From the IMG/VR virus record IMGVR_UViG_3300031565_000118, positions 1-40,853 of that record: 40,853 nucleotides of DNA; one strand, written 5' to 3'. Source of the stretch: a virus. The notes under the pieces are model-generated. The model made no database searches and was not told the DNA's origin. It worked only from the letters and a program-made list of their open reading frames with translations. A program made the translations under genes and the position numbers. Below, piece after piece: positions 5,383 through 37,891 of the stretch; within the stretch, counting starts at the first letter, position 1; each line of letters starts with the position of its first letter.

Positions 5383-6102
5383 ATGATTCTCGATAAGACA
5401 ATCGCCGTTGTCGTTCCTGCCTACAATGAAGAGCGCCTTATCTACGGCACGCTCACCACTATCCCTCGCTTTGTTGACCATATTATCGTGGTGGATGATG
5501 CCAGTACGGATGAGACTCGCCGGATCATGTCATTAGCTCAGGGCGAAGATGAAAGAATAACTTTGTGCTACCACAACGCAAATCAAGGCGTAGGGGTGGC
5601 GATTTGTGATGGTTATAGGGCTGCTTTAAGCGCAGGAGCCGACATTATCGCAGTCATGGCCGCAGATGGTCAGATGGATGCCGGGGATCTCTACCGGATC
5701 GTGGAGCCGGTGGCCCTGGGAGAGGTGGATTATGCTAAAGGCAATCGTTTTATTATGCCTTGGGTGCGCTATATGGGAGGGGTGGCGCTTTCTTGGCTTA
5801 CATCTTTCGTCTGTGGCAGACAAATTATCGACAGTCAATCTGGTTTTACTGCTATATCTCGTGATGTCCTCCAAAAACTCCCTCTAGACAAAATCTATCC
5901 CCGCTACGGTATGCCCAACGACATGCTCATCAAACTCTCGAAGGTAGGAGCTCGGATCAGGAACGTGCAGACAGCACCAGTATACGGACATGGTGAGCAA
6001 TCGGGGATTAAGATACATAAGGTGATTTGGCCGATACTCGGCATATTAGCGAGAGGGTTATGGCAAAGGATTTCACCCTTACGGCTTATAAAGAACTCTT
6101 AG
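5383..6102 (+). CDS. Family 2 glycosyltransferase, polyprenyl-phosphate-sugar-synthase-like
   Basis: This 239-residue GT-A-type enzyme opens with VVVPAYNEE, followed by VVDDAST and the metal- and donor-binding AADGQMD (about 92-98). A long acceptor region contains SQSGFTAISRD, and the C terminus (SGIKIHKVIWPILG) matches the DPM1/polyprenyl-phosphate mannosyl- or glucosyltransferase group. These enzymes load a sugar from its nucleotide form onto a lipid carrier at the inner membrane. No transmembrane helix pair is present. Its promoter is strong and leaderless. It begins a cargo block with a deacetylase and a radical SAM enzyme, and could supply donor for the GT-C-type enzyme encoded at 20981. 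Confidence 0.8.
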   Translation: MILDKTIAVVVPAYNEERLIYGTLTTIPRFVDHIIVVDDASTDETRRIMSLAQGEDERITLCYHNANQGVGVAICDGYRAALSAGADIIAVMAADGQMDAGDLYRIVEPVALGEVDYAKGNRFIMPWVRYMGGVALSWLTSFVCGRQIIDSQSGFTAISRDVLQKLPLDKIYPRYGMPNDMLIKLSKVGARIRNVQTAPVYGHGEQSGIKIHKVIWPILGILARGLWQRISPLRLIKNS

Positions 6103-6752: not shown

Positions 6753-6922
6753 GAATTAGAGTAGTTGTTACTCATAAAGAAAAAGAAACCGAATATCTTA
6801 AATTTCCGCATTGTCTTGCTCTGCTTGATTACCAATTAGGTCTAGGGATTGAGCAATTAGACGAGATTGAATCTTTTGACGTTTACCCGGAGCATTTATT
6901 TAATGAAAATCCTCCTCATTAA
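6746..6922 (+). CDS. Small protein of unknown function
   Basis: This 58-residue acidic protein is read from a GTG overlapping the deacetylase stop, with GAAGAGG about 8 bases upstream. An earlier in-frame GTG at 6737 is possible. The pattern is a strand (LRIRVVVTHKEKETEY) followed by a helix-like stretch (CLALLDYQLGLGIEQLDEI). It overlaps the start of the radical SAM gene. No family was recognised. Its base use is more AT-rich than the neighbouring genes. Confidence 0.45.
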   Translation: MLRIRVVVTHKEKETEYLKFPHCLALLDYQLGLGIEQLDEIESFDVYPEHLFNENPPH

Positions 6923-8264
6923 CCCACCCCTAACCGCAGAGCAACGCTATGGCAAGGACCTGGCGCAGTTCGGACCATGCTCTGAGCCCCTGGGATTGGC
7001 TTATGTGGCGGGGGCTCTCGAGCAGGCAGGGCATGAGGTGAGGATATGGGATGGGCAGGTGGAGAGGCGCACACCATGGGCACCAGAGGCCGAGCTTATT
7101 GGAATTACCATGAATACCCCTTCATACCAGGTCGTCAAAGAAATGTGCATTGCTCTGAAGTCTGAGCATAGCACCATTTTCCATGACATTCCTATCATCC
7201 TCGGCGGTCCTCATCCTACTGTGATGCCTGAGGAGACGGCAAAAGACATTCCAGAAGCGGATTATATCGTAGCTGGTGAAGGTGAAAGAACAGATATTTG
7301 GGATATGCCTTCAGGTACGATCGCTCATACATTTCCCGTTAAGAATCTTGATGATCTCCCCCTCCCCGCCCGCCACCTCCTCCCCATGAAGCAGTACCAG
7401 ATCACGGCCTCGCGCAACAAAGGGCATCACGCTTATACTGTGATAGTGGCTCGAGGCTGTCCATTCGAGTGCGCCTTCTGCTGCCGGTTGCATGGCCGCA
7501 AGGTGCGGTTTCACTCAGTTGATCGGGTAATTCAAGAGATAGAGCTCCTTGTGAGGGACTACGATGCAAAGGAAATCAATCTGGAAGCTGATACCATTAC
7601 GGTCAATCATAAGTGGATGTATGGCTTGTGTGATGCTCTTATTAGCAGCGGTCTTAATCACCGTATTTCATGGACATGCGAGAGCCGGGTGGATACGGTA
7701 GATGAGAATATGCTGCGGTACATGAAGCAGGCCGGCTGCTGGCAGATAAGTTATGGAGTGGAGACAGGAACCCAGAGGCTCTTGGACTTCATCAAGAAGG
7801 GTATCACGTTAGAGCAAGTACGGGAGACATTTGCAATAACCAAGAAGGTAGGTATCAATGTACGGGCATTCTTTATGCTGGGGATACCTACGGAGACACG
7901 GGAGGAATCAGATGCCACGATTCAATTTGCTAGACAGCTTAAAGCGGGTTGGTCACAGTTCACAATCTGTGTGCCATTCCCTGGAAGTTCTTTATATCAA
8001 TGGTGTCTTGAGAATGAACCCGGAAGAATATCGGGTAATTGGGCAGATTTTAGAACGCATGGAGGATGGGGTAAAGGACCTCTCGCTTATTTTCCAAAAG
8101 CACGTACCCAAGCCGAAATGAAAGCCCTCCAAAAAGAAGCATACCGCAGGGTATATCTCCGGCCAAGTCGTGTATGGTCCTATCTTGCCAAGGTGCGCTC
8201 TCTCAGGCAACTGTGGCAGGGTTTCAAGGGTGCCTGGGTGGTAGCAAAGACGAGGTGGGCGTGA
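6903..8264 (+). CDS. B12-binding-domain radical SAM protein
   Basis: This 453-residue protein begins with MKILLINPPL, the start of a cobalamin-binding domain (about 1-140, with LGLAYVAGALEQAGHEV and GGPHPTVMPEE). The iron-sulfur site is C186-x3-C190-x2-C193 (GCPFECAFC), followed by the TIM-barrel features NLEADT, YGVETG and FFMLGIPTET. The C-terminal 80 residues are basic and helical. Relatives methylate unactivated carbons or build odd rings in surface sugars, lipids and antibiotics. Such enzymes are unusual in phages. It sits with a glycosyltransferase, deacetylase and methyltransferase, which suggests surface-glycan or lipid tailoring. The substrate is unknown. Confidence 0.9.
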   Translation: MKILLINPPLTAEQRYGKDLAQFGPCSEPLGLAYVAGALEQAGHEVRIWDGQVERRTPWAPEAELIGITMNTPSYQVVKEMCIALKSEHSTIFHDIPIILGGPHPTVMPEETAKDIPEADYIVAGEGERTDIWDMPSGTIAHTFPVKNLDDLPLPARHLLPMKQYQITASRNKGHHAYTVIVARGCPFECAFCCRLHGRKVRFHSVDRVIQEIELLVRDYDAKEINLEADTITVNHKWMYGLCDALISSGLNHRISWTCESRVDTVDENMLRYMKQAGCWQISYGVETGTQRLLDFIKKGITLEQVRETFAITKKVGINVRAFFMLGIPTETREESDATIQFARQLKAGWSQFTICVPFPGSSLYQWCLENEPGRISGNWADFRTHGGWGKGPLAYFPKARTQAEMKALQKEAYRRVYLRPSRVWSYLAKVRSLRQLWQGFKGAWVVAKTRWA

Positions 8265-8851: not shown

Positions 8852-9337
8852 ATGAACATCCTTGACTTCGGTTGTGGAAACGGCGTGATGCTGCCTACCC
8901 TGGCAGAGCACTTCAGCTCTGTGGTGGCTTTTGATATCTATACCAAGGCCGCAAATCAACTGAGAATGAAATATGGCTTTGAAAATATAGAAATTCGCAA
9001 AGGACAATCAAGATGGCCTGCTTATGTGCCTTTTGATGCAAATAGATTTGATGTGGTCTGGGCCTCATCTACCCTGGAGCACATCAAGAACTTGGGCATG
9101 GCAGTGTATCAGCTTCACCGTGTCCTGAAACCAGGAGGTCAGCTCCTATGTCTCTCCCCAAGCGAAGATTGGCTCTACAACCTGGGCCGGAAACTGTTTA
9201 GATTGCACAAGCCAGCGGATCACTATCACACCGGCAAAGAGATTCATGAGGCATTACAGGAGTATTTCACCTGTGAGGCAAAGAAATCATGGCCTCCGCT
9301 CACAGGAACTTATTTGATGGGGAGGTATAGGAAATGA
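8852..9337 (+). CDS. Class I SAM-dependent methyltransferase (type 11)
   Basis: This 161-residue protein has motif I DFGCGNG (about 5-11), an acidic second strand FDIYTKA, then FDVVWASSTLEHI and the post-motif VLKPGGQLLCLSP. It is short for the family and lacks an N-terminal extension; the ATG at 8852 is used because motif I must follow a single strand. Members methylate small molecules, sugars or lipids. Placed after the radical SAM gene, it probably belongs to the same surface-modification pathway. Confidence 0.85.
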   Translation: MNILDFGCGNGVMLPTLAEHFSSVVAFDIYTKAANQLRMKYGFENIEIRKGQSRWPAYVPFDANRFDVVWASSTLEHIKNLGMAVYQLHRVLKPGGQLLCLSPSEDWLYNLGRKLFRLHKPADHYHTGKEIHEALQEYFTCEAKKSWPPLTGTYLMGRYRK

Positions 9338-10062
9338 GATATGTAACGATTATAGGGTTGGCCTTGCTTCTAACAGGCTGCCTTGCAACAACCAAGAGTG
9401 TCCAGGCTCCTCCACAGGAGATAATCTTGACCGTCAAGGCCGTCGATCAGCCGGTGGAGGTTGCCAAGGAAGATGAAGGCGACAAGATCAACCGGACCAT
9501 GCAAATTCAAAACCAGGAAGGTGTGCTTTCTGCTTTGTCATTCAAATGTGATGGAGAGGTATTTATCAAGTTATGGTCTGCCCTTACTGTTGTCGATGTT
9601 ATGAATATCTGGAGTGATATTACTATTTTGGAGAAAACCACAGATATTCGCACGATTCAACTTTTTATCAATTCTCCTGGCGGTGATGCCTTTTCCGGGC
9701 TTGCTCTTGCCGATGAGATCAAACGTGCAAAGGTATTAGGCTTTACCGTGATAGGTCATGCCTCCGGTATCGTTGCCAGTGCTGCTGTACCCATATTCGC
9801 TGTTTGCAATAAGCGTATTACCGCCCCCAGTACAATATTTATGGTTCACGAGACATCAATCTGGAAGTGGCCGGGAAGGGAAACACATTCCGATATTATT
9901 TCTCAAGGGAAACTCATGGATTTGCTTAGGGATCGGTACATGGACACATTGACTGAAAATAGCAAACTCTCCCGTGAGCAATGGGAAGCAATGGAAGCAA
10001 AAACCACATGGTTTTCTGCTCAACAAGGCATGGAATGGGGCCTGGTGGATAGGATAGAATGA
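9334..10062 (+). CDS. ClpP-like serine protease domain in a predicted lipoprotein
   Basis: This 242-residue protein has a lipoprotein signal (LLLTGC, acylated Cys16) and then a linker to a ClpP/SppA-fold domain. The oxyanion motif INSPGGD is at about 112-118, the nucleophile is Ser149 in VASAAVP, the catalytic His is 172 in MVHET, and the closing pattern is FSAQQGMEWGLVD. The usual third-triad Asp is replaced by Thr in KTTWFSA, as it seems in some phage ClpP-like proteases. In phages this fold usually serves as head-maturation protease. A lipid anchor argues instead for an envelope role, such as cleaving membrane proteins to exclude rival phages. It precedes the terminase genes with ATGA overlaps. 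Confidence 0.75.
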   Translation: MRYVTIIGLALLLTGCLATTKSVQAPPQEIILTVKAVDQPVEVAKEDEGDKINRTMQIQNQEGVLSALSFKCDGEVFIKLWSALTVVDVMNIWSDITILEKTTDIRTIQLFINSPGGDAFSGLALADEIKRAKVLGFTVIGHASGIVASAAVPIFAVCNKRITAPSTIFMVHETSIWKWPGRETHSDIISQGKLMDLLRDRYMDTLTENSKLSREQWEAMEAKTTWFSAQQGMEWGLVDRIE

Positions 10063-18862: not shown

Positions 18863-19855
18863 ATGAGAAAACTCTTAACTTTTATACTGGCCCTGGCATT
18901 GGTCTTTGCTTTGACTATGCCCGCCAGCGCGACCTACAAGAATATGTGGGCCTACGTCTACTCATGGGATGGGGATCTTACCGCAGACGGCAAATATGAG
19001 CTGAGCAGGGTAGAAAGCGGAATCAGTTTTGTGGTTCTGCAACATGACTCTGATGCCACGATGGAAACCCTCTATGTGTATGACAAGACGCCCCTCGTCA
19101 CAACCGGCATGGCTCAACCTGTTACCGGGACCAGCTATGCCTCGGATACTGTCTGCAATGACATGGTTGCATTCAGGGTTGACCCCAGCGAAACCGACGA
19201 CACGGATGTTGATTTAATCGTGGTGGACCAGGCCGGGGGCTATACGGCAGTGGTGAATGGGTTCAACGAAAATACACACACCATTGTTATTGACGAACGG
19301 CCCCTTGTGGAGCATTGGGGAGCGGCATGGTTGGTCACTACCGCTACGTCAAGCGAGATCGCGGCTGGAATCGACTTTGCTCGTCCGTCAATAATCCATG
19401 AGATGAAGATCAAGGTATGTACCGCATTTGCGAGTTTGACCTGTGTAAATGTGGGCCTGACTGCGGCTGGAACCAACGGAGATGCTGACGGTTTCATTCG
19501 TATGGAACAGGTAGCGACACAGGGCTGGCACAGCATTTACAGGCCCGGTGTCGATCTTACAAGTTATCTCGTGAGTAGTGGCGGCGAAAGATCGTCTTAT
19601 TGCAGCACCCATGAAACCGCAGATGGAGTAATGGGACCCAGCTTAGGGACGTACCTGGGTAATTTTATGGTGGGTACGGGCGCTAGTGCTCTTGCTAGTC
19701 CTGGCATCGGAATCATGAACAAAGAATCTCTCATGATTCATGCTACCTGGGAGCAAAGTCTTACCTATACCTTTGCCTCTGGTGCTTCCACAACTGTTAC
19801 CGCGAACAGCACGGGGTGGGGCATCGTCTGGTTCCGCTTTATAGCGATTAGGTAA
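18863..19855 (+). CDS. Secreted-type virion-region protein, paralogue A
   Basis: This 330-residue protein has a clear Sec signal (MRKLL, hydrophobic core, cleavage near PASA-TYK, about residue 24). The mature part is all-beta, with WAYVYSWDGDLTADGKYE, GMAQPVTGTS, IDERPLVEHWGAAWL and a closing TGWGIVWFRFIAIR. The next gene encodes a clear paralogue with the same landmarks. It has an excellent ribosome site (AAGGAGG). A Sec signal is unusual on a protein lying in a head-tail gene row. It may be an exported fibre or cell-surface coat rather than a standard tail part. Confidence 0.65.
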   Translation: MRKLLTFILALALVFALTMPASATYKNMWAYVYSWDGDLTADGKYELSRVESGISFVVLQHDSDATMETLYVYDKTPLVTTGMAQPVTGTSYASDTVCNDMVAFRVDPSETDDTDVDLIVVDQAGGYTAVVNGFNENTHTIVIDERPLVEHWGAAWLVTTATSSEIAAGIDFARPSIIHEMKIKVCTAFASLTCVNVGLTAAGTNGDADGFIRMEQVATQGWHSIYRPGVDLTSYLVSSGGERSSYCSTHETADGVMGPSLGTYLGNFMVGTGASALASPGIGIMNKESLMIHATWEQSLTYTFASGASTTVTANSTGWGIVWFRFIAIR

Positions 19856-19893: not shown

Positions 19894-19914
19894 ATAACTA
19901 AAGTGGAGATGAAC

Positions 19915-20925
19915 ATGAAAAAAATCATTATAGCCATAGCACTCATAGTAAGCCTGACCTTTGGCCTGACTGCTGCGAATGCAGGAAAGCCCGTAGGAAT
20001 GCAGGATTTTTGGGCTTACGTCTACCGATGGGACGGCTCTATGACTGCTAACGGCCTGATGGAAGTTACTAGGGCAACCAGTGGTGTTACCTTTGTAGTC
20101 TTACAGCGCAACAGCGTTGTTACCATGGAAACATTGTATCAGTATGGCAAAAAGACCATGATTACCACTGGAATGGCGCAGCCTGTTACCGGGACGAGTT
20201 TCGGAGCTGTTCTCGTTTGTGATGACAAGATAGCTTTTGCCGTGGACCCCAGCGAAACCGGGGACACCTACGTTGACCTTATTGTCGTTGACCAGACGGG
20301 CGGGTACACCAGCGTTGTGCGGGACTTTAACCAATACATGCACACGATCATCATTGATGAAAGACCGTTGATAAAACACTGGGGTGCGGCTTTTCTCATA
20401 ACAACCGCAACCTCAACGGAGATTAGTGCGGGCATTGAACTTCCCCGACCTTCGATCATTCATGACATGAAGATCCAGGTTTGTACTGCCTTTGCGAGTA
20501 CGGCGGTTGTGCATGTTGGACTTAGCGCAGCCGGGACCAATGGGGATATTGACGGCTTTATCCATGGCGAACAGGTAGCGACGAAGGGCTGGCACAATAT
20601 CTATAGGCCGGGTGTCGATCTTACGAGCTATCAGGTCAGCAGCGGTGGCTCAAGAGGTTCCTATGCAAGCACACGGACTCCCACCGATGGGGTTCTTGGT
20701 CCTGCCCTTGGCACATACCTGGGTAACTGGATGATAGGTACCAATGTCACCAATGTCGCCCTAACGGGTGAAGGCATTGGCATTCTGAATAAGGAAGAGC
20801 TGGTAGTTCACGGCACCTGGGAACAGACGCTTTCCTATATGTTCGGCACCGGCGCGGCTTCGGCGGTGGCGGCTAACAGTACCGGATGGGGCATTGTGTG
20901 GTTTAATTTTACGGCAATCAGGTAA
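19915..20925 (+). CDS. Secreted-type virion-region protein, paralogue B
   Basis: This 336-residue tandem paralogue of the preceding gene shares WAYVY-WDG, GMAQPVTGTS, the DLIVVDQ-GGYT stretch, IDERPLI-HWGAA, GWH-IYRPGVDLTSY and a closing TGWGIVWFNFTAIR. It has its own Sec signal (MKKIIIAIALIVSLTFGLTA, cleavage near ANA-GKP). The start at 19915 follows GTGGAG with a 7-base gap; the upstream GTG is not needed. Two diverged secreted copies suggest heteromeric assembly or variation of an exposed protein. Confidence 0.65.
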   Translation: MKKIIIAIALIVSLTFGLTAANAGKPVGMQDFWAYVYRWDGSMTANGLMEVTRATSGVTFVVLQRNSVVTMETLYQYGKKTMITTGMAQPVTGTSFGAVLVCDDKIAFAVDPSETGDTYVDLIVVDQTGGYTSVVRDFNQYMHTIIIDERPLIKHWGAAFLITTATSTEISAGIELPRPSIIHDMKIQVCTAFASTAVVHVGLSAAGTNGDIDGFIHGEQVATKGWHNIYRPGVDLTSYQVSSGGSRGSYASTRTPTDGVLGPALGTYLGNWMIGTNVTNVALTGEGIGILNKEELVVHGTWEQTLSYMFGTGAASAVAANSTGWGIVWFNFTAIR

Positions 20926-20970: not shown

Positions 20971-20980
20971 CTGGGAGCTT

Positions 20981-22534
20981 ATGAAAAAGAATCTTATCAT
21001 TTTCGGGGTGCTGGCCGTTGCGATCCTCCTTGTCTATTCCAATACGTTCAAGGCAGGACTTCACTATGACGATAGTGTGAACATTACCCATAACAGCATA
21101 ATTCAGATTAAAAGCCTGGATTGGGAGAGCATTAAGGCAACGTGGTTCGCGGGTGGCGCACGGGGGGATATCTATCACCCGGTGCTTTACCGGCCCTTGG
21201 CTATGTGCTCCTTTGCCCTCAATTACTATTTCAACGGCCTTGATGTGTTCTGGTATCACGCCGTCAATACGCTGATCCATATCATAACCGCTATGCTTCT
21301 CTTTCTGTTTATCAAGGAAGTATTGCTTTTACCTGCACTGAGAGAGAAATATGGCGATTATGCTTTGCAGATTGCCGGACTCGCTGCTTTCTTGTGGGCG
21401 ATCAATCCGGTGCAGCTCACGAGCGTTACCTATATCGTGCAGAGGCAAAATAGCCTGTGCGGGATGTTTTATCTCCTTGCATTCTACTTCTATATTAGGG
21501 CCAGGAAGAGCAAATCGCCCCTACAGTACACTTTCTCCGGCCTAGCCATAGTCCTGGCTATGCTCAGTAAAGAAAACGCAATCCTGGCCTTTCCTGCGAT
21601 TGCCCTCTTTGAAGTGATGTTCTTCGGCATGAGCAGGAAAAAGCTCACAATTTTCGGGTGTTTTATAATTGGCGGGTTCTTGCTTATTCTGGCGGTCCAG
21701 GGCTGGGAAACTTTCAGCATCGACACCTTAATGAAAGGCTATGCAAAACGCGAGTTCACCGTGGGCCAGCGGGTTCTCACGGAATCACGGGTTATGGTGT
21801 TCTATATCATGCTCCTGCTTTGTCCCTACCATGGATTTCTCTGTCTTACTCATGTGGTGCCCTTATCTCATGGGTTGCTCAATCCACCTGCAACTCTGGT
21901 TTCCCTGCTTATTATCGCAACGATCTTTACCCTTGCCATAATCAAGATCAAGAAACACCCGCTAATATGTTACTGCGTGTTTTTCTTTTTCCTGAATCAT
22001 CTGGTGGAAGGCACGGTTATCCCCCTTGAGCTTATCTATGAGCACCGGAATTACATACCCTCATTCTTCTTTTTCCTACCGATAGCGATCCTTGTTATCC
22101 ATGCTTACCGCCACTGGTTCAAGTCTATGGCCCTCGTGACAACCGCGCTGATCGTGCTTTTCATGGGATACAATACCTATATCCAAAACAAAGTATGGGA
22201 AACGGATTATAAATTGTGGGTGGATGTTTGCACGAAAAGTCCTGATCCCCGGTCAATCTTCAATTTCGCCGGAGTCTGGTACACCTTTTGGGCTAAGGGA
22301 AATGCGGGTGACGAGGGGCTTCACAAGGCAATAGGGCTATGGATGATCGCGGCAACCTTTAATGAACGATACGGCACCGACTACTCGGAGGATCCTGATG
22401 TGATCCCTTACGGAAGGGTAATGAGCATGGCGCGGTATAATGCCCAAATGCTTATGAGGATGAGCAAAATGAAGAGGACCGAAGCAATAGCATTGCGAGG
22501 ATTGCCTGAAGATAGGAGTCAACCTAATGGCTGA
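20981..22534 (+). CDS. Polytopic membrane glycosyltransferase-like protein (TMTC/GT-C type)
   Basis: This 517-residue protein begins with a hydrophobic helix and then has the hallmark first loop YSNTFKAGLHYDD, a YRPLAMCSFALNYYFNG stretch, and WYHAVNTLIHI. LWAINPVQLTSVTYIVQRQNSL, an L-S-KENA segment and about nine to ten further helices follow. This is the arrangement of TMTC/DUF1736-like GT-C enzymes, which in animals transfer mannose to Ser/Thr of proteins from a lipid-linked donor. The C-terminal 90 residues are soluble and lack clear TPR units. The gene lies between secreted virion-region genes and an adaptor gene, inside the structural block, overlapping the next gene by 8 bases. GGGAGC is the ribosome site. 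It probably glycosylates exported phage or surface proteins. Confidence 0.7.
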   Translation: MKKNLIIFGVLAVAILLVYSNTFKAGLHYDDSVNITHNSIIQIKSLDWESIKATWFAGGARGDIYHPVLYRPLAMCSFALNYYFNGLDVFWYHAVNTLIHIITAMLLFLFIKEVLLLPALREKYGDYALQIAGLAAFLWAINPVQLTSVTYIVQRQNSLCGMFYLLAFYFYIRARKSKSPLQYTFSGLAIVLAMLSKENAILAFPAIALFEVMFFGMSRKKLTIFGCFIIGGFLLILAVQGWETFSIDTLMKGYAKREFTVGQRVLTESRVMVFYIMLLLCPYHGFLCLTHVVPLSHGLLNPPATLVSLLIIATIFTLAIIKIKKHPLICYCVFFFFLNHLVEGTVIPLELIYEHRNYIPSFFFFLPIAILVIHAYRHWFKSMALVTTALIVLFMGYNTYIQNKVWETDYKLWVDVCTKSPDPRSIFNFAGVWYTFWAKGNAGDEGLHKAIGLWMIAATFNERYGTDYSEDPDVIPYGRVMSMARYNAQMLMRMSKMKRTEAIALRGLPEDRSQPNG

Positions 22535-28559: not shown

Positions 28560-30027
28560 CCGTTTTTATATTCCCAGACGTTCAAATGCCCTGGATTTCG
28601 GACAGATGGCGATACGACTTGCAGCCATGAAGCAGCAGGGAGCGCAGTTTGAGAAGGGCCATGCCCTTGCTGAAAGACGGCAGAAGTTATCGGAAGGTGA
28701 GCACCAATTACAAAAGGAGAGATTTAAAAAGGAGTATGGCTATGACCAACCCCAATCGGGAGAGTTTGACGAGTGGCACGGCATGGGGCATGTGCAGGGA
28801 TTGAAGGAGCGCGGGGTATCAGTCGCAGAACGACAGGTAGGAGCAACAGAACAACAAATTCCTATCACTGAAAAGGATTTCAGTCCTTCCAGTGTCCTGC
28901 GATTCGAGAAGTTACAGCTTGCAAATGTTGGCCTAGATAAAGCCTGGAAACCCGTTACTGACATAATCAAAGGATGGGCGAATGATCCTCAAATAACAAA
29001 CCGGGCAGCTTTGCATCTTGGTATAGCGAATTGGCCTCAACTACAAAGCCTTGCCCTTGAAGGATTGGAAAAAGAATATCAGAAAAGTTCTCCCGGTCCT
29101 CGGCAAAAGATGCTTGAGCAAATGATTGATCAGATTTCCAAAGATACAAAAGGGGATATGATTAAACAAATAATGCCAGCAACGGCAAAAGCCATAGAGA
29201 ATGAGCAGACCTTGATTGAATCGAAAGCGGGGGAGTCTAGGGCTATGAAATCCTGGGTGACACCTGATGGCAAAGTCGTCAATCTTCCGAATAACGTCAC
29301 ACCTCCTGAAGGTTCCGTACCTTATCAGTCGGGTATGGATATTGAGGTGACGGATGAGGGAACCAGAATCAGGACCGGAGTTTCGGGAATCGCTGGGGGA
29401 ATGCAACGAAAAACAGCCGGAACCCTTGAAGATAAGGTTTTAAACACGGTTGAAGGCATCCAACGGCTTGATCAAATAGCACAGAGTTATCGCCCTGAAT
29501 ATCAAGAACTTGGGACACGGTGGAAAACCTTTGCTTCAAAGTGGAAGGAAAAATTGCGCGGAACTCCTGTGGAAAAATGGGTGGATTTGGGACTTGAACC
29601 CGATGATAAGGTTTTGCTTCAAAACTACACAGCATTCAGGCGAGATGCCATTGATAACATCAACCGGCATATCAAGGAGATTACCGGCGCACAAATGAGC
29701 GAGAAAGAGGCAGGCAGAATCAGAAAGGGTATGCCGGACCCAGGGGAAGGCTTACTTGATGGCGATTCACCTACAGAGTTTGAGGCAAAGTGGAAATCAT
29801 CGGCCACCTCTTTGCGAATGGCTCAAGCCCGCTATGTGTATCTTTTGAAAACCGGCATGAATGAGGGTGCTATCAAGGGTCTTGCTAAACAAGACATGCT
29901 TCCATCTCTTTCCAATATGAAGGCAATCATTAACGACAAGGCCGAAGAAATCAAGGCGGCAAATCCAGGAATCCCAAAAGATCAACTGACGCTTGAAGTA
30001 TCAAAATATTTCGGGTTGGCAAAATGA
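28552..30027 (+). CDS. Candidate internal virion protein 1
   Basis: This 491-residue soluble, helical protein is rich in Lys, Gln and Glu. Notable parts are an early helix (QMAIRLAAMKQQGAQFEKGHALAERRQKLSEG, read in parts) and a C-terminal region (RWKTFASKWKEKLRG, KWKSSATSLRMAQARYVYL). Its position after the glycine-zipper gene and before a large Ala/Lys-rich protein matches the order of podovirus ejection proteins. The start at 28552 has CGGAGGTG upstream. No family was recognised with certainty. Confidence 0.45.
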   Translation: MANRFYIPRRSNALDFGQMAIRLAAMKQQGAQFEKGHALAERRQKLSEGEHQLQKERFKKEYGYDQPQSGEFDEWHGMGHVQGLKERGVSVAERQVGATEQQIPITEKDFSPSSVLRFEKLQLANVGLDKAWKPVTDIIKGWANDPQITNRAALHLGIANWPQLQSLALEGLEKEYQKSSPGPRQKMLEQMIDQISKDTKGDMIKQIMPATAKAIENEQTLIESKAGESRAMKSWVTPDGKVVNLPNNVTPPEGSVPYQSGMDIEVTDEGTRIRTGVSGIAGGMQRKTAGTLEDKVLNTVEGIQRLDQIAQSYRPEYQELGTRWKTFASKWKEKLRGTPVEKWVDLGLEPDDKVLLQNYTAFRRDAIDNINRHIKEITGAQMSEKEAGRIRKGMPDPGEGLLDGDSPTEFEAKWKSSATSLRMAQARYVYLLKTGMNEGAIKGLAKQDMLPSLSNMKAIINDKAEEIKAANPGIPKDQLTLEVSKYFGLAK

Positions 30028-33082: not shown

Positions 33083-34891
33083 ATGCAGCACCACAAATGG
33101 ACGAAAACAGCTAGGATTTTCAAGCACGATACCGAACCAAATCGGTTTATTTGGCATGGACGAGTTGGGCAGCAAAATGTTGGCTTAGGTAATGATGAAT
33201 TTGTGCCTTATATATGGGATGCACAGAACCAGATTGCTCAATATGGCAATTTTCAGGTGCAGTTTTTTGATTGGTATCAGGTCGTTACAAGGCTTATCCC
33301 GGAAGAGAAGGTTGTCATTGACGATCAGCGATTTGAGGTTCAGCATTTTTTAGGGGACAAATGGCGAGTTCTCGATCTCTATAATCATTCTATTAGCGTT
33401 ACGGAAAATACCGAAAAGGGCCTACTTTTTCTTAAGAACACCTATGCGGGTGATGGGCAAGATGTTCTTGAAATAGAATATCAGATCGGGCAGGGAGATT
33501 CGATTAAATTCTCTACACGCCTCAAGATTGAAAATGCTGGTACATATAGAATCCGTTGGCAGAATACGGGCGTACAAGGGGAGATTGTTGCAGGCGAAAC
33601 TAACTTACGATTTGGAGAAATCCAATTCGGCTGGATGTCAACTGAATCACTTTTCAGAACCCATGAAATTGAGTATCAAGCACAGGGTCAGAAAGTTGAT
33701 ATTTTCATGGGGCCTTATGAGTTGGATGCAGGAGAGGAAATCCTTATATCTCCTGATACCTGGGGGCCAACAAATGTAAATGACGATGCGGATTATGACA
33801 GTACGGGAGATAAGTACGATCAACATACTGGCGGTAATGAGATTTGGGTAGGTAATGATGGTTCTAATGTTTGGAGTCTTGGACTCAGGTTTGTCAACGT
33901 TACTATTGCCAAAGATTCAACGATAAACTCAGCGTATATTTATCTTAACCGGTCGGGCGCCGGTGTCACAGCAAATTTAAGAGTGAAAGGGACTGATGAA
34001 GATAATACCGCAGCCTGGGAGGAAGCCAGTCAGTGGGAAGATAGGGACGTTACCGCTGCTACTGTGGATTGGGATATTACGGAAGATCCTGGATGGGGAG
34101 AATATACTACATCTCCTGACATTGACACTATTGTTGCCGAAATTACCAGCCGTGCCGGATGGTCGTCTGGCAATGCTATGGGTATTTGGGTGGATGATGA
34201 TGGTTCGGCTGGATGGAGATACTATAAAGCCTTTTCGGTAGAAACATCTGGTTATGAACCGTATATGCAAATTGATTATACGGCGCCCACGACCACGACC
34301 CCGGAACCTACAACCACCACCCCGGTGCCCACGACAACCACCCCGGTGCCCACGACCACGACTCCGGTGCCCACCACGACTCCGGTGCCCACCACGACTC
34401 CGGTGCCAACGACGACAACGCCAGTTCCGACGACGACGACAACCACCCCGGCTCCGACGACGACCACCACGACGACAACGCCAGTTCCGACGACGACGAC
34501 AACCACCCCGGTGCCCACGACCACGACCCCGGAACCTACAACCACCACCCCGGTGCCCACGACGACGACAACGCCCGCGCCTACAACAACCACGACTACT
34601 CCTGAACCTACTACCACAACCACGACTCCAATTCCCACAACTACCACGACGACTCCGGTGCCCACGACGACTCCGGTGCCCACGACAACCACCCCGGTGC
34701 CCACGACAACCACCCCGGTGCCCACGACCACGACTCCGGTGCCGACAACCACGGTGGCCCCGACAACCACGGTGGCCCCGACAACCACGACAACGGCAGC
34801 TCCGACTACCACTACCACGACAACGGCAGTTCCAGGAGCAGAGTGGTATCCAGAAATGTTGTTGGGCGTACTTAGAATGAGGCTAAAGTAA
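33083..34891 (+). CDS. Virion-like protein with DNRLRE-type beta domain and Thr/Pro mucin-like stalk
   Basis: In this 602-residue protein, residues 1-215 are soluble and beta-rich. About 225-398 form a beta domain (INSAYIYLNRSGAGVTANLRVKG, then SRAGWSSGNAMGIWVDD and YEPYMQIDY) like DNRLRE carbohydrate-associated modules. Residues about 400-583 are a low-complexity domain of runs of three to eight Thr separated by PVP, PEP, PAP or PIP, about 20 such units in all. It ends in a short hydrophobic, basic tail (EWYPEMLLGVLRMRLK). There is no signal peptide. The next gene overlaps (TAATG) and encodes a DSH-motif glycosyltransferase. A rod that is heavily O-glycosylated is the obvious model. It is probably a tail fibre or surface spike. 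Confidence 0.6.
   Translation: MQHHKWTKTARIFKHDTEPNRFIWHGRVGQQNVGLGNDEFVPYIWDAQNQIAQYGNFQVQFFDWYQVVTRLIPEEKVVIDDQRFEVQHFLGDKWRVLDLYNHSISVTENTEKGLLFLKNTYAGDGQDVLEIEYQIGQGDSIKFSTRLKIENAGTYRIRWQNTGVQGEIVAGETNLRFGEIQFGWMSTESLFRTHEIEYQAQGQKVDIFMGPYELDAGEEILISPDTWGPTNVNDDADYDSTGDKYDQHTGGNEIWVGNDGSNVWSLGLRFVNVTIAKDSTINSAYIYLNRSGAGVTANLRVKGTDEDNTAAWEEASQWEDRDVTAATVDWDITEDPGWGEYTTSPDIDTIVAEITSRAGWSSGNAMGIWVDDDGSAGWRYYKAFSVETSGYEPYMQIDYTAPTTTTPEPTTTTPVPTTTTPVPTTTTPVPTTTPVPTTTPVPTTTTPVPTTTTTTPAPTTTTTTTTPVPTTTTTTPVPTTTTPEPTTTTPVPTTTTTPAPTTTTTTPEPTTTTTTPIPTTTTTTPVPTTTPVPTTTTPVPTTTTPVPTTTTPVPTTTVAPTTTVAPTTTTTAAPTTTTTTTAVPGAEWYPEMLLGVLRMRLK
34285..34835 (+). repeat. Thr/Pro-coding tandem minisatellite
   Basis: About 550 bases consist of degenerate repeats on a CCGGTGCCCACGAC theme. 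Two long exact copies are visible: 41 bases at 34411-34451 and 34471-34511 (60-base shift), and 51 bases at 34285-34335 and 34513-34563 (228-base shift). This shows recent duplication or slippage. The repeats keep the frame, so stalk length could vary between relatives. Confidence 0.85.
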
Positions 34892-35685
34892 TGCTATTGA
34901 CTATTGGAATGCCCTGTTATGAGAATTTTACCGAGGTCTGGTTTACCGTCGAGGCCCTACGTCTTTATCAGGATTTAACCGATTGTGAGATTCTTGTGCT
35001 CGACAATAAAGGCTCAGATGATATGTATCATCTTGTGAAATCCTTTCAGACCATACGCTATGAGAAGTTTGGAGAGGTAAACGGCACAGGCCCCGCACGA
35101 AATGAGATATTCAACCGTGCTAATGGTGATTTTGTGCTTATCCTGGATAGCCATGTTTTCCTCTGGAAAGACAATATCGCCCGCCTGAAATGGTGGCTTA
35201 AAGAACATTGGGAAGAGGCAAAGAATTTAATTCAAGGAACCATCGTTTTGAGCAGCTTGAAGAATTGCTATACCAATTATCTCCCACAATGGAGAGCCGG
35301 GATGTGGGGAATATGGCCCCCTGCCCAGGATGTGAACAAATTGGGAGATCAGGCCATTGAGATTGAGATAGGACCGCTCGGCCTCTTTGGATGCCGTAAA
35401 GATTCATGGTTGGGTTTTCATTCCAAATGCAAAGGGTTTGCTGGTGTGGAAGGTGTTTTACAGGAAAAGTACCGGAAGGACGGGAGAAAGGTTTTGTGCT
35501 TACCCTGGTTGCGGTGGACCCACTTTTTCGGAAGTGAAAAGCGGGTATATCCCCTGCAAGTGGAAGATAAGATCAGGAATTTTCTCTATGGGTTTCAGGA
35601 AATCGGTCTTGACCCTAAACCGATATATGAACACTTCGGGGAAATGGTTGTGAGTAGGGTAGCGGAGAGTATTGTCAATGAGTGA
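34891..35685 (+). CDS. Family 2 glycosyltransferase with a DSH metal motif (GT2/GT27-like)
   Basis: This 264-residue GT-A-fold protein opens with LLTIGMPCYENF, followed by ILVLDNKGSDD, then GTGPARNEIFNRANGDFVLIL and the metal motif DSH at 86-88. The acceptor side has GLFGCRKDSW and KGFAGVEGVLQEKYR, then LCLPWLRWTHFFG. The D-x-H form recalls polypeptide GalNAc-transferases (DSH in GT27), though similar GT2 genes occur in phages. The gene overlaps the Thr/Pro-stalk gene (TAATG), so the two should be translated together. This makes the stalk the leading candidate acceptor. The sugar is unknown. Confidence 0.75.
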   Translation: MLLTIGMPCYENFTEVWFTVEALRLYQDLTDCEILVLDNKGSDDMYHLVKSFQTIRYEKFGEVNGTGPARNEIFNRANGDFVLILDSHVFLWKDNIARLKWWLKEHWEEAKNLIQGTIVLSSLKNCYTNYLPQWRAGMWGIWPPAQDVNKLGDQAIEIEIGPLGLFGCRKDSWLGFHSKCKGFAGVEGVLQEKYRKDGRKVLCLPWLRWTHFFGSEKRVYPLQVEDKIRNFLYGFQEIGLDPKPIYEHFGEMVVSRVAESIVNE

Positions 35686-35890
35686 GTTTTATAGAAACAA
35701 GTTTGAACCTGTATCTGAATCGGTCATGTTGGAAGGTCCAGAAGGAACAATATGCGGGGTATTGCGTGAGATATATATGAAATCAAGGAAGAAAGAGGTT
35801 AAACGGTTATGTCGTTTAGCAACGGCAATGGCAAAGCGGATGGGCATAGCCATAGCGGAGTATAAGAAAAATGAAACTTCCTCTCGTTAG
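35678..35890 (+). CDS. Small basic protein of unknown function
   Basis: This 70-residue protein overlaps the stop of the previous glycosyltransferase gene. The N terminus is mixed (YRNKFEPVSESVMLEGPEG), and the C-terminal half is a basic helix (MKSRKKEVKRLCRLATAMAKRMG). AGCGGAGAG lies upstream. It overlaps the next glycosyltransferase gene by 20 bases. No family was recognised. Confidence 0.45.
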   Translation: MSEFYRNKFEPVSESVMLEGPEGTICGVLREIYMKSRKKEVKRLCRLATAMAKRMGIAIAEYKKNETSSR

Positions 35891-36617
35891 TTGTCTTACT
35901 GCCACATACGGACGGTATTCGGCATTGACCGAGGCAATAAGTTGTTTCTTGGCCCAGGATTACCCGAATAAGGAATTGATCGTTTTGAATAATCACCCGA
36001 AAAGGCTTATATGCGAACTGCCACAGGTGAGGATTCATAACGAATCCGGTTGGCCGACACTGGGAGATTGCAGGGATTATCTTTTAACTCTTGCCCACGG
36101 TGAACTTATCAGAACATGGGATGATGATGACCTTTATCTTCCTTGGGCGATTAGCCAAGGTGTTCTGATGCTCCCCGATGATGCCCCCGCTTGGAAACCA
36201 GGGCATTCATGGGGTTGGCAGGTCACAGAAGATCGAATGTATCTCGGGGCCAATAAGTATGAGGCATCCTGGACAACGCGGAAGGAAATCGTAGAGAAAT
36301 ACGGCTATATCTTAAACTCAGGGGGCAATGAACACAATGCGCTAGAGCAAGGCATAGCAAAGGAAGGCGGCATAGCCCGGACAGACTTAGGAGCGGCAGG
36401 TGCATCTTATGTCTATCGGTGGGGATCGGGTCTTCACCGAATTTCTGGTACGCTTGACAAAACCAAAAACAATATTGCTGAAAGAACAGAACGCTGGAAA
36501 CAACGCAATGACGATCACGGAGACTATAAACCCATTAACCCAATAAGCCTTATCAAGTATTGGGAAAGGATAGAAAGGGCACGATATGAGCTGGATGCAC
36601 ACACAGATGAAACCTGA
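35871..36617 (+). CDS. Family 2 glycosyltransferase
   Basis: This 248-residue GT-A-type enzyme begins VSCLTATYGRYSALTEAISCFLAQDYPNKELIVLNN (read in parts). It has WDDDDLY (about 83-89) as the metal-binding D-x-D site and a later EHNALEQGIAKEGG region. It differs from the DSH-type enzyme two genes upstream, so the pair may add successive sugars. No membrane segment is present, so it acts in the cytoplasm. The gene overlaps the small basic gene before it and the methyltransferase after it. Confidence 0.8.
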   Translation: MKLPLVSCLTATYGRYSALTEAISCFLAQDYPNKELIVLNNHPKRLICELPQVRIHNESGWPTLGDCRDYLLTLAHGELIRTWDDDDLYLPWAISQGVLMLPDDAPAWKPGHSWGWQVTEDRMYLGANKYEASWTTRKEIVEKYGYILNSGGNEHNALEQGIAKEGGIARTDLGAAGASYVYRWGSGLHRISGTLDKTKNNIAERTERWKQRNDDHGDYKPINPISLIKYWERIERARYELDAHTDET

Positions 36618-37221
36618 AAAACGATGTGACGAGAATCCTCTGTTTCCGGTATCTAGGATATTCCAGGAGATAGACTGGAAACTATCGGGCGGAACGAAAC
36701 ACGCCTGTCTTATCTCGGCGGCTATGATCCTCGCTTATAACGTCAAGACCATTGTTGAAATAGGATTATGGAATGGGTTTACTTCGCAGATATTGGGCAA
36801 GGCTCTTGCCTCAAATGCTATGGAAGATGGGCTTTTGATCTCCTGTGACATTAATCAACGTGCCTGTGATCGATCGGAAGCATTTACCAGGGGGATCCCC
36901 ATTAAGCATGTCTTGGTTGTCGGTGATAGTAAAGCCGTAGACTGGAAACACTATCTCGGTGAGCGCAAGATTGGCCTTGCTTTTGTTGACGGTGATCACT
37001 CCTATGATAGTGCCATTACCGACATAGAGAAGTGCTCACAACTTCTTGACCGAAACGGCATTATGGTTGTGCATGATTATTCCGTAGGAAGCCATCCCCA
37101 TGTTTTCCAAGCGGTCAATGAGTTTATAGCATATACCAATATGCCTTGGTTCTTTCTTCCAGAGGATAGAAAAGCTACCGATTACAGGACCGTAATCTTT
37201 CAAAAGAGAGAGGTCTATTGA
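36586..37221 (+). CDS. Class I SAM-dependent methyltransferase (Methyltransf_24-like)
   Basis: This 211-residue protein has motif I IVEIGLWNGFTS, then LISCDINQRA, AFVDGDHSYDSAITDIEKC and a later NGIMVVHDYS, all typical of the Methyltransf_24 group, which often modifies sugars or sugar nucleotides. The start at 36586 has AAAGGG upstream; later in-frame ATGs at 36595 and 36607 are possible. It overlaps the glycosyltransferase gene by 32 bases and so probably caps or methylates the same glycan. Confidence 0.75.
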   Translation: MSWMHTQMKPEKRCDENPLFPVSRIFQEIDWKLSGGTKHACLISAAMILAYNVKTIVEIGLWNGFTSQILGKALASNAMEDGLLISCDINQRACDRSEAFTRGIPIKHVLVVGDSKAVDWKHYLGERKIGLAFVDGDHSYDSAITDIEKCSQLLDRNGIMVVHDYSVGSHPHVFQAVNEFIAYTNMPWFFLPEDRKATDYRTVIFQKREVY

Positions 37222-37571
37222 TGAAAAAGAAAATATTCGAGTTTTACGCTAGTAAGAGGTTTGAACTGACCAAACTCTATCGGGCGAAGCCACAGGGATT
37301 AAGCAACGCTCAAGTGCAGGCCGCAGCCCAGGAGCTTTATAAACAGATACAACGGGGTCTTGAAATCAAGAATATTAATATTGCTCGGAGAATCTTCGAA
37401 CTGGCGAAAACTGTCGAGTACAAAGAATTTGTGAAGGATCAGGAAATTATAGAGACATACAAGCCAGTGATCAGGACGTTGAAACGAGAACGGATTTTTC
37501 TCTGGGTTGCCATAGGAGTGCTTGCTGTTTCCTGGGTCTTGTTGCTACGAGATTATTTAGGAGGTTTCTAA
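37221..37571 (+). CDS. C-terminally anchored membrane protein of the lysis region
   Basis: This 116-residue protein starts in a TGATG overlap. A long basic cytoplasmic helical part (NAQVQAAAQELYKQIQRGLEIKN) leads to one C-terminal helix (IFLWVAIGVLAVSWVLLL, about 93-110). It precedes small lysis-like genes, so it may be an accessory holin or an anchored assembly factor. No family was recognised. Confidence 0.45.
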   Translation: MKKKIFEFYASKRFELTKLYRAKPQGLSNAQVQAAAQELYKQIQRGLEIKNINIARRIFELAKTVEYKEFVKDQEIIETYKPVIRTLKRERIFLWVAIGVLAVSWVLLLRDYLGGF

Positions 37572-37891
37572 TGAGAGGAGAAGCAGTAAATTTCACGGGA
37601 TCAGGTATATTGTGGAACTCTGAAGGTTCCTTAGTCGGATTTTTGATTGGCATGGATAATGCGACTGATCCTCAGATTACGTTTTATGATGGACTAAGTT
37701 CAGCCGGACGACAGATCACACCCACCACTGACCTTGATGCAACCGCAATGGGGTTTAATGGAGCCATGCCGGGTATAATGCACATACCGTTTAGAACTGG
37801 GCTCTATGTTTTGGTCGAAGATTACGATGGTACGGCGTGGAGTGGTACGCTTGAAGGCATAGCCTACATAGCTTCAGGACAGAAATCGTGA
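37571..37891 (+). CDS. Small beta-rich virion-like protein
   Basis: This 106-residue soluble protein starts in a TAATG overlap. It opens with GEAVNFTGSGILWNSEGSLVGFLIG and ends with MGFNGAMPGIMHIPFRTGLYVLVED, a regular beta-rich pattern seen in small phage structural or decoration proteins. It has no signal peptide. No family was assigned. Confidence 0.45.
   Translation: MRGEAVNFTGSGILWNSEGSLVGFLIGMDNATDPQITFYDGLSSAGRQITPTTDLDATAMGFNGAMPGIMHIPFRTGLYVLVEDYDGTAWSGTLEGIAYIASGQKS

Follow-up and report, generated by a model that had tools for sequence, protein, structure and literature searches.

The IMG/VR virus record IMGVR_UViG_3300031565_000118 is linear and 40,853 bases long, and the whole of it is the window analysed here. 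At positions 33083–37221, on the plus strand, a gene for a protein with a long Thr/Pro stalk is followed by overlapping genes for two glycosyltransferases (GTs), here called GT1 and GT2, and a methyltransferase; we consider below whether these enzymes may glycosylate the stalk. The stalk gene (33083–34891) encodes 602 amino acids, arranged as a head of 400 residues, the Thr/Pro stalk and a C-terminal tail of 21 residues. Its mucin-like stretch, the presumed acceptor, covers residues 401–581 (34283–34825, plus strand), and these 181 residues, close to the figure of about 180 in a preliminary description of this DNA, include 110 threonines, 44 prolines and 16 valines, with runs of 3–8 threonines separated mostly by PVP, PEP or PAP. 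A DNA repeat artefact is ruled out by the mixture of all four threonine codons (ACG 43, ACC 35, ACA 19 and ACT 13) together with the recurrence of such stretches elsewhere with varied units. The coordinates and the stalk of the preliminary description stand, but its label ‘virion-like’ runs ahead of a protein that has no match in Pfam, PHROG or NCBIfam, and its location in the virion is something that we infer.

The stalk gene occupies a variable slot behind ejection-type proteins, the kind of slot expected for receptor-binding or adhesin genes. In a sister phage (L126/L436) whose preceding genes are 73–84% identical to those of the window, the syntenic gene (L436) encodes a head unrelated to that of the window and, after it, a Ser/Pro stalk of SPSESPSVSPSAS repeats, within which the contig ends. 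IMG/VR scans with this Ser/Pro protein and with the gene at 30024 returned the known contig only, or nothing.

One A is common to the TAA that ends the stalk gene and the ATG with which GT1 begins, giving the TAATG overlap that had been noted previously. GT1 (34891–35685, plus strand) is a soluble, GT27-like glycosyltransferase of 264 amino acids with a DxH motif and a PF00535 match of 46 bits, and is the presumed initiating enzyme. It is coupled to GT2 through a gene for a 72-residue basic protein (35672–35890), for which no homologue was found. GT2 itself (35871–36617) is an ordinary GT2-type glycosyltransferase by its PF00535 match, fold and WDDDD motif, and would extend the glycan, whilst the last enzyme (36586–37221), of the Methyltransf_24 type (PF13578, E 8e-17), is presumed to O-methylate the sugar. 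All lie on the plus strand, in the order and with the serial overlaps first described, although the overlap chain proves to be longer, continuing through two small genes at 37218–37571 (one membrane segment) and 37571–37891, also on the plus strand. These have homologues in the relative L140 and may or may not form part of the cassette. None of GT1, GT2 and the methyltransferase has a signal peptide or a membrane segment.

The association of the three enzymes is also seen outside the window. A GT2-family domain is fused to the C-terminus of GT1 in four other loci (L061, L103, L288 and L350), and matches to this domain number 18 in viral and 15 in genomic GT1 loci, against one in the Ala/Pro control set described below. 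Methyltransf_24 is fused to GT1 in L076 (27.9 bits, above the cut-off) and, more weakly and below the cut-off, in L322. These fusions therefore link all three cassette enzymes of the window elsewhere.

Predicted fold and motifs of GT1

An AlphaFold model of GT1, calculated from an alignment of 14 homologues (A1), has a mean predicted local distance difference test score of 88.3 and a predicted template modelling (TM) score of 0.89. The best 50 matches to this model in the PDB are without exception GT27 polypeptide N-acetylgalactosamine (GalNAc) transferases (best E 2.5e-14; TM by query 0.62–0.77). They comprise GalNAc-T1, T2, T4, T7, T10 and T12, Drosophila PGANT9 and Toxoplasma GalNAc-T3, several of them in complexes with bound peptide. 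GT2, treated in the same way as an internal control, matched heparosan synthase, SpsA, TarP and chondroitin polymerase, with GT27 enzymes in none of the best 50. The comparison of the two enzymes of one operon rules out that GT1 is an ordinary GT2-type enzyme, and the fold search proposed in the preliminary description came out in favour of its earlier reading.

The sequence motifs point in the same direction. The DSH motif of GT1 lies at residues 86–88, and D86, H88 and a distal histidine, H211, are candidate metal ligands; the equivalent set in GALNT1 is Asp209, His211 and His344, in a family of which a C-terminal ricin-like lectin domain is part (PMC4202792). Among GT1 homologues the DxH motif is present in 178 of 178 and the third metal-ligand histidine (WxH) in 177 of 178. 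In a profile alignment with GalNAc-T10, DSH falls on DSH, GGE on WGGE and the distal histidine on its counterpart, and in a profile search of PDB sequences GalNAc-T10 matched residues 34–228, whereas bacterial GT2-type enzymes matched only about the first 120. Motif, PF00535 match and fold together uphold the earlier description of a DSH-motif, GT2/GT27-like glycosyltransferase, and the model predicts a GT27-like fold with the metal ligands of GT27.

The likeness to the GT27 GalNAc-transferases of animals and Toxoplasma thus covers the predicted GT-A fold, the DxH motif with its distal histidine, a GGE-type motif and Thr/Pro-rich neighbours that resemble known GT27 acceptors. The differences are that GT1 has neither lectin domain nor signal anchor, stopping at 264 amino acids with matches of the PF00535 type only, and that it belongs to a prokaryotic virus, in an operon with GT2 and a methyltransferase. 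In place of WGGE the family has FGGE, and the window copy reads F183, A184, G185 and V186, with E187 kept, so that phenylalanine stands for tryptophan and valine for glutamate. Because of the absent lectin domain and the altered WGGE motif we do not file GT1 as a member of GT27; judged by its modelled fold, it would work like a GT27 enzyme without being a proven member.

GT1 homologues beside Thr/Pro-rich genes

We scanned IMG/VR in the forward direction with a DNA pattern encoding TTTTPxPTTTT, independent of any glycosyltransferase (120 loci, 1.07 Mb), and, as a control, with one encoding AAAAPxPAAAA (120 loci, 1.08 Mb). A GT1 homologue was present in 16 of the 120 Thr/Pro loci and in none of the 120 Ala/Pro loci (Fisher 2e-5), and 10 of the 16 lie directly after the Thr/Pro gene on the same strand. 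When full records were compared, 50 of each kind, the counts were 6 and 0.

The reverse scan used the GT1 profile alone, and the best 80 of at least 473 IMG/VR matches were taken. An open reading frame (ORF) rich in Thr, Ser and Pro was found in 59 of these 80 loci, compared with 20 of 120 Ala/Pro loci and 1 of 27 loci from relatives of the window's capsid, likewise taken from IMG/VR. Such an ORF lies directly before 33 of 79 viral GT1 genes; for the remaining genes of these loci the figure is 28 of 632 (Fisher 7e-19, uncorrected for relatedness). Adjacent cases occur in 18 of 45 viral clusters at 75% identity and in 15 of 32 at 60% identity (single linkage). On a tree of the family the adjacent state changes 22 times, at least 10 of them by well-supported branches; the pairing has therefore been gained or lost many times and was not inherited once. 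The database check suggested for Thr/Pro-stalk genes beside DSH-type glycosyltransferases has accordingly returned a pairing that recurs across many GT1 lineages, among uncultured phages as well as bacteria, far above the controls.

The partner proteins of other phages carry differing domains, including a pectate-lyase-like protein (L108 and L285) and tail-fibre and FGE-sulfatase-type domains (L027). From their sequences, some look like tailspikes or tail fibres, and their position and domains suggest receptor-binding proteins.

The GT1 profile also matches bacterial genomes from many phyla, in which a Thr/Ser/Pro-rich ORF precedes 13 of 72 GT1 genes compared with 7 of 640 other genes; some of these loci may be prophages. 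The bacterial GT1-like enzymes are larger and contain HprK-like, PqqD-like or GT25 parts. Several of their partners (in Oricola, Hyphomicrobium, Bradyrhizobium and Desulfofustis) have an RR leader and a Thr-rich tail together with a motif resembling LPxxWTKPVVxxVxxPAHA. By eye the leader looks like a twin-arginine translocation (Tat) signal, consistent with a protein that is modified in the cytoplasm first and exported afterwards.

As a separate observation, seven loci (L359, L366, L370, L378, L381, L388 and L415) encode small bacterial proteins with the RR leader, the WTKPVV..PAHA motif and the Thr-rich tail before GT1-like enzymes with HprK/PqqD-like and GT25 parts; two of the loci, L370 and L388, belong to the cultured strains Oricola indica JL-62 and Desulfofustis glycolicus DSM 9705. 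They possibly represent an undescribed exported mucin-like glycopeptide system.

Probable stalk glycosylation and other possible targets

Taken together, the fold and the gene neighbourhoods favour a cassette with which the phage O-glycosylates its own mucin-like stalk, a reading to which we give a probability of roughly 0.6. We infer that the stalk is the acceptor, that GalNAc may be the sugar and that the linkage would be of the mucin type. In this scheme GT1 would act in the cytoplasm, transferring a sugar from a nucleotide donor to threonines of the freshly made stalk, GT2 would add a second sugar and the methyltransferase would cap the glycan by O-methylation. A stalk so modified would be stiff, extended and resistant to proteases, and could keep a head with a receptor-binding or adhesive role at a distance from the particle, perhaps masking it as well.

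Several observations weigh against this interpretation. GT1 is missing from 44 of the 50 full records with a Thr/Pro stalk, many of them fragments, and a Thr/Pro stalk alone is therefore not enough to predict GT1. Conversely, in over half of the cases no stalk gene directly adjoins GT1. The profile used in the reverse scan (A1) was itself built from Thr/Pro loci, a possible source of bias in which matches came among the best 80, and the adjacency p-values take no account of relatedness. For the stalk head, no relative was found by a single-sequence scan of IMG/VR or by tblastn in INPHARED, and its membership of the virion is accordingly putative. In the window copy of GT1, V186 stands where the family has a glutamate equivalent to that of WGGE in GalNAc-transferases, and the end branch is long (0.76, against a median of 0.33). 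With the motif glutamate lost, this copy may use a different donor or be less active.

Of the alternatives, the one that survives best, although we regard it as unlikely, is that the enzymes have the host surface (O-antigen, capsule or a surface glycoprotein) as their target and alter it in the lysogenic state, as in serotype conversion by Gtr proteins, and that they adjoin the stalk gene only through a shared variable tail-fibre or moron region. The phage is temperate, encoding an integrase, and has a separate GtrB-like glycosyltransferase and a PMT_2-like membrane glycosyltransferase; GT2, moreover, resembles enzymes of the polysaccharide type. Gtr systems share with the cassette phage-encoded glycosyltransferases in a temperate phage, but Gtr acts on lipid-linked sugars at the membrane, through a bactoprenol glycosyltransferase with membrane-associated partners. 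GT1 is soluble and weakly similar to GtrB (E 0.013), GT2 has no GtrB match listed, and neither has the membrane segments of such a system. Against a host-surface target there is also the match of the GT1 fold to GT27, the tenfold greater frequency with which GT1 follows Thr/Ser/Pro-rich genes than do other genes of the same loci, and the fact that bacterial genomes, too, have the pairing, there with Thr-rich proteins that bear Tat-like leaders.

Somewhat less probable is a cassette whose target is DNA, or some other protein of phage or host that has a Thr/Ser-rich segment, the stalk gene being merely linked. The GT1 genes that no stalk directly adjoins would then be accounted for, and there are known examples of virus-encoded glycosyltransferases that hypermodify DNA (cited in PMC12619734). 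However, the GT27-like fold and the repeated occurrence of GT1 beside Thr/Ser/Pro-rich ORFs whose other domains differ suggest that the repeat itself is the shared element. Least likely is that the family glycosylates stalks while the window copy is decaying or has changed in specificity. In favour of this are A184 and V186 in an otherwise conserved FGGEE motif, which the GT1 homologues of L103 and L108, for example, keep in full, and the long end branch; against it are genes that are all open and overlapping, the retention of DxH, E187 and the distal histidine, and a confident model.

If glycosylation of the window's own stalk is accepted, the cassette can be compared with known systems. Serine-rich repeat glycoproteins are surface adhesins of Gram-positive bacteria that are exported by the accessory Sec system, and their glycosyltransferases, GtfA and GtfB, are of another type. 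The parallels with the phage cassette as proposed here are intracellular O-glycosylation, a low-complexity adhesin stalk and co-encoded enzymes (PMC7948813). Glycosylation of mycobacteriophage virions is known (Freeman et al., 2023, as cited in PMC12691614 and PMC12619734), and would share with the present case, in which both the glycosylation and the place of the stalk in the virion are putative, a phage-associated glycosylation of structural proteins. The mycobacteriophage glycans are described as C-terminal on the subunits of capsid and tail tube (PMC12619734), whereas the window has a dedicated Thr/Pro stalk with an adjoining GT27-like enzyme. Our literature search found no report from phages or bacteria of GT27-like enzymes with mucin-like stalks, a weak absence given that most subscription papers lay outside it.

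A broader proposal, which we hold tentatively and judge somewhat doubtful, is that mucin-type O-glycosylation is widespread in prokaryotes and phages, with soluble GT27-like enzymes acting on Thr/Ser/Pro-rich acceptors: receptor-binding stalks in phages, and proteins with Tat-like leaders and Thr-rich tails in bacteria. Mucin-type initiation would then extend beyond eukaryotes, and relatives of GT27 working on similar substrates would exist among prokaryotes and viruses. Environmental phage proteins often contain Thr/Pro-rich linkers, which tend to be dismissed as low complexity; should these be glycosylated by a dedicated GT27-like enzyme, phages build mucin-like stalks and the enzyme family that initiates mucin O-glycosylation in animals has relatives in phages and bacteria. 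The locus offers a candidate enzyme–acceptor pair that is open to direct testing and compact (264 amino acids) GT27-like candidate catalysts that lack a lectin domain. It also supplies a rule for recognising further cases by sequence, namely a DxH glycosyltransferase adjoining a Thr/Ser/Pro-rich ORF.

The phage and its other genes

The window encodes a terminase, a P22-type portal (PF16510), a PF13252 capsid protein and, at its right end, a partial integrase, a gene content that marks the phage as temperate and podovirus-like. The portal has no relative detectable by tblastn among the 50,697 phage records of INPHARED, which sets the lineage far apart from phages in culture. GT1 gave nothing in a single-sequence scan of IMG/VR, and neither it nor four relatives from its family gave anything by tblastn in INPHARED, where the GtrB-like protein, as a control, did give matches.

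A second glycosylation module lies apart from the stalk cassette. It consists of a multi-pass PMT_2-like membrane glycosyltransferase (20978–22534), which by eye resembles TMTC and is encoded behind two signal-peptide proteins, and of a GtrB-like polyprenol-phosphate glycosyltransferase (5383–6102). Only the nearest relatives (L124–L127; 64–76% identical where the phage differs) retain these two enzymes, and more distant capsid relatives lack them. For the membrane enzyme there was no match in a PDB search and none by tblastn in INPHARED.

Before the terminase there are genes for a B12-binding radical SAM enzyme (6867–8264) and for a Clp-protease-like protein with a lipoprotein-like N-terminus, LTGC (9334–10062). 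Two adjacent paralogues, 63% identical, directly follow the capsid region (18863–19855 and 19903–20925); the loci of relatives showed one match apiece. They are among six genes of the structural module (starts 18863, 19903, 23423, 24629, 32339 and 32742) that open with Sec-like signal peptides, which is odd for a virion that is put together in the cytoplasm. These genes have homologues in L126–L129 and L135–L145, and the homologues of 19903 from a dozen capsid relatives (33–64% identical) retain the Sec-like signal peptide.

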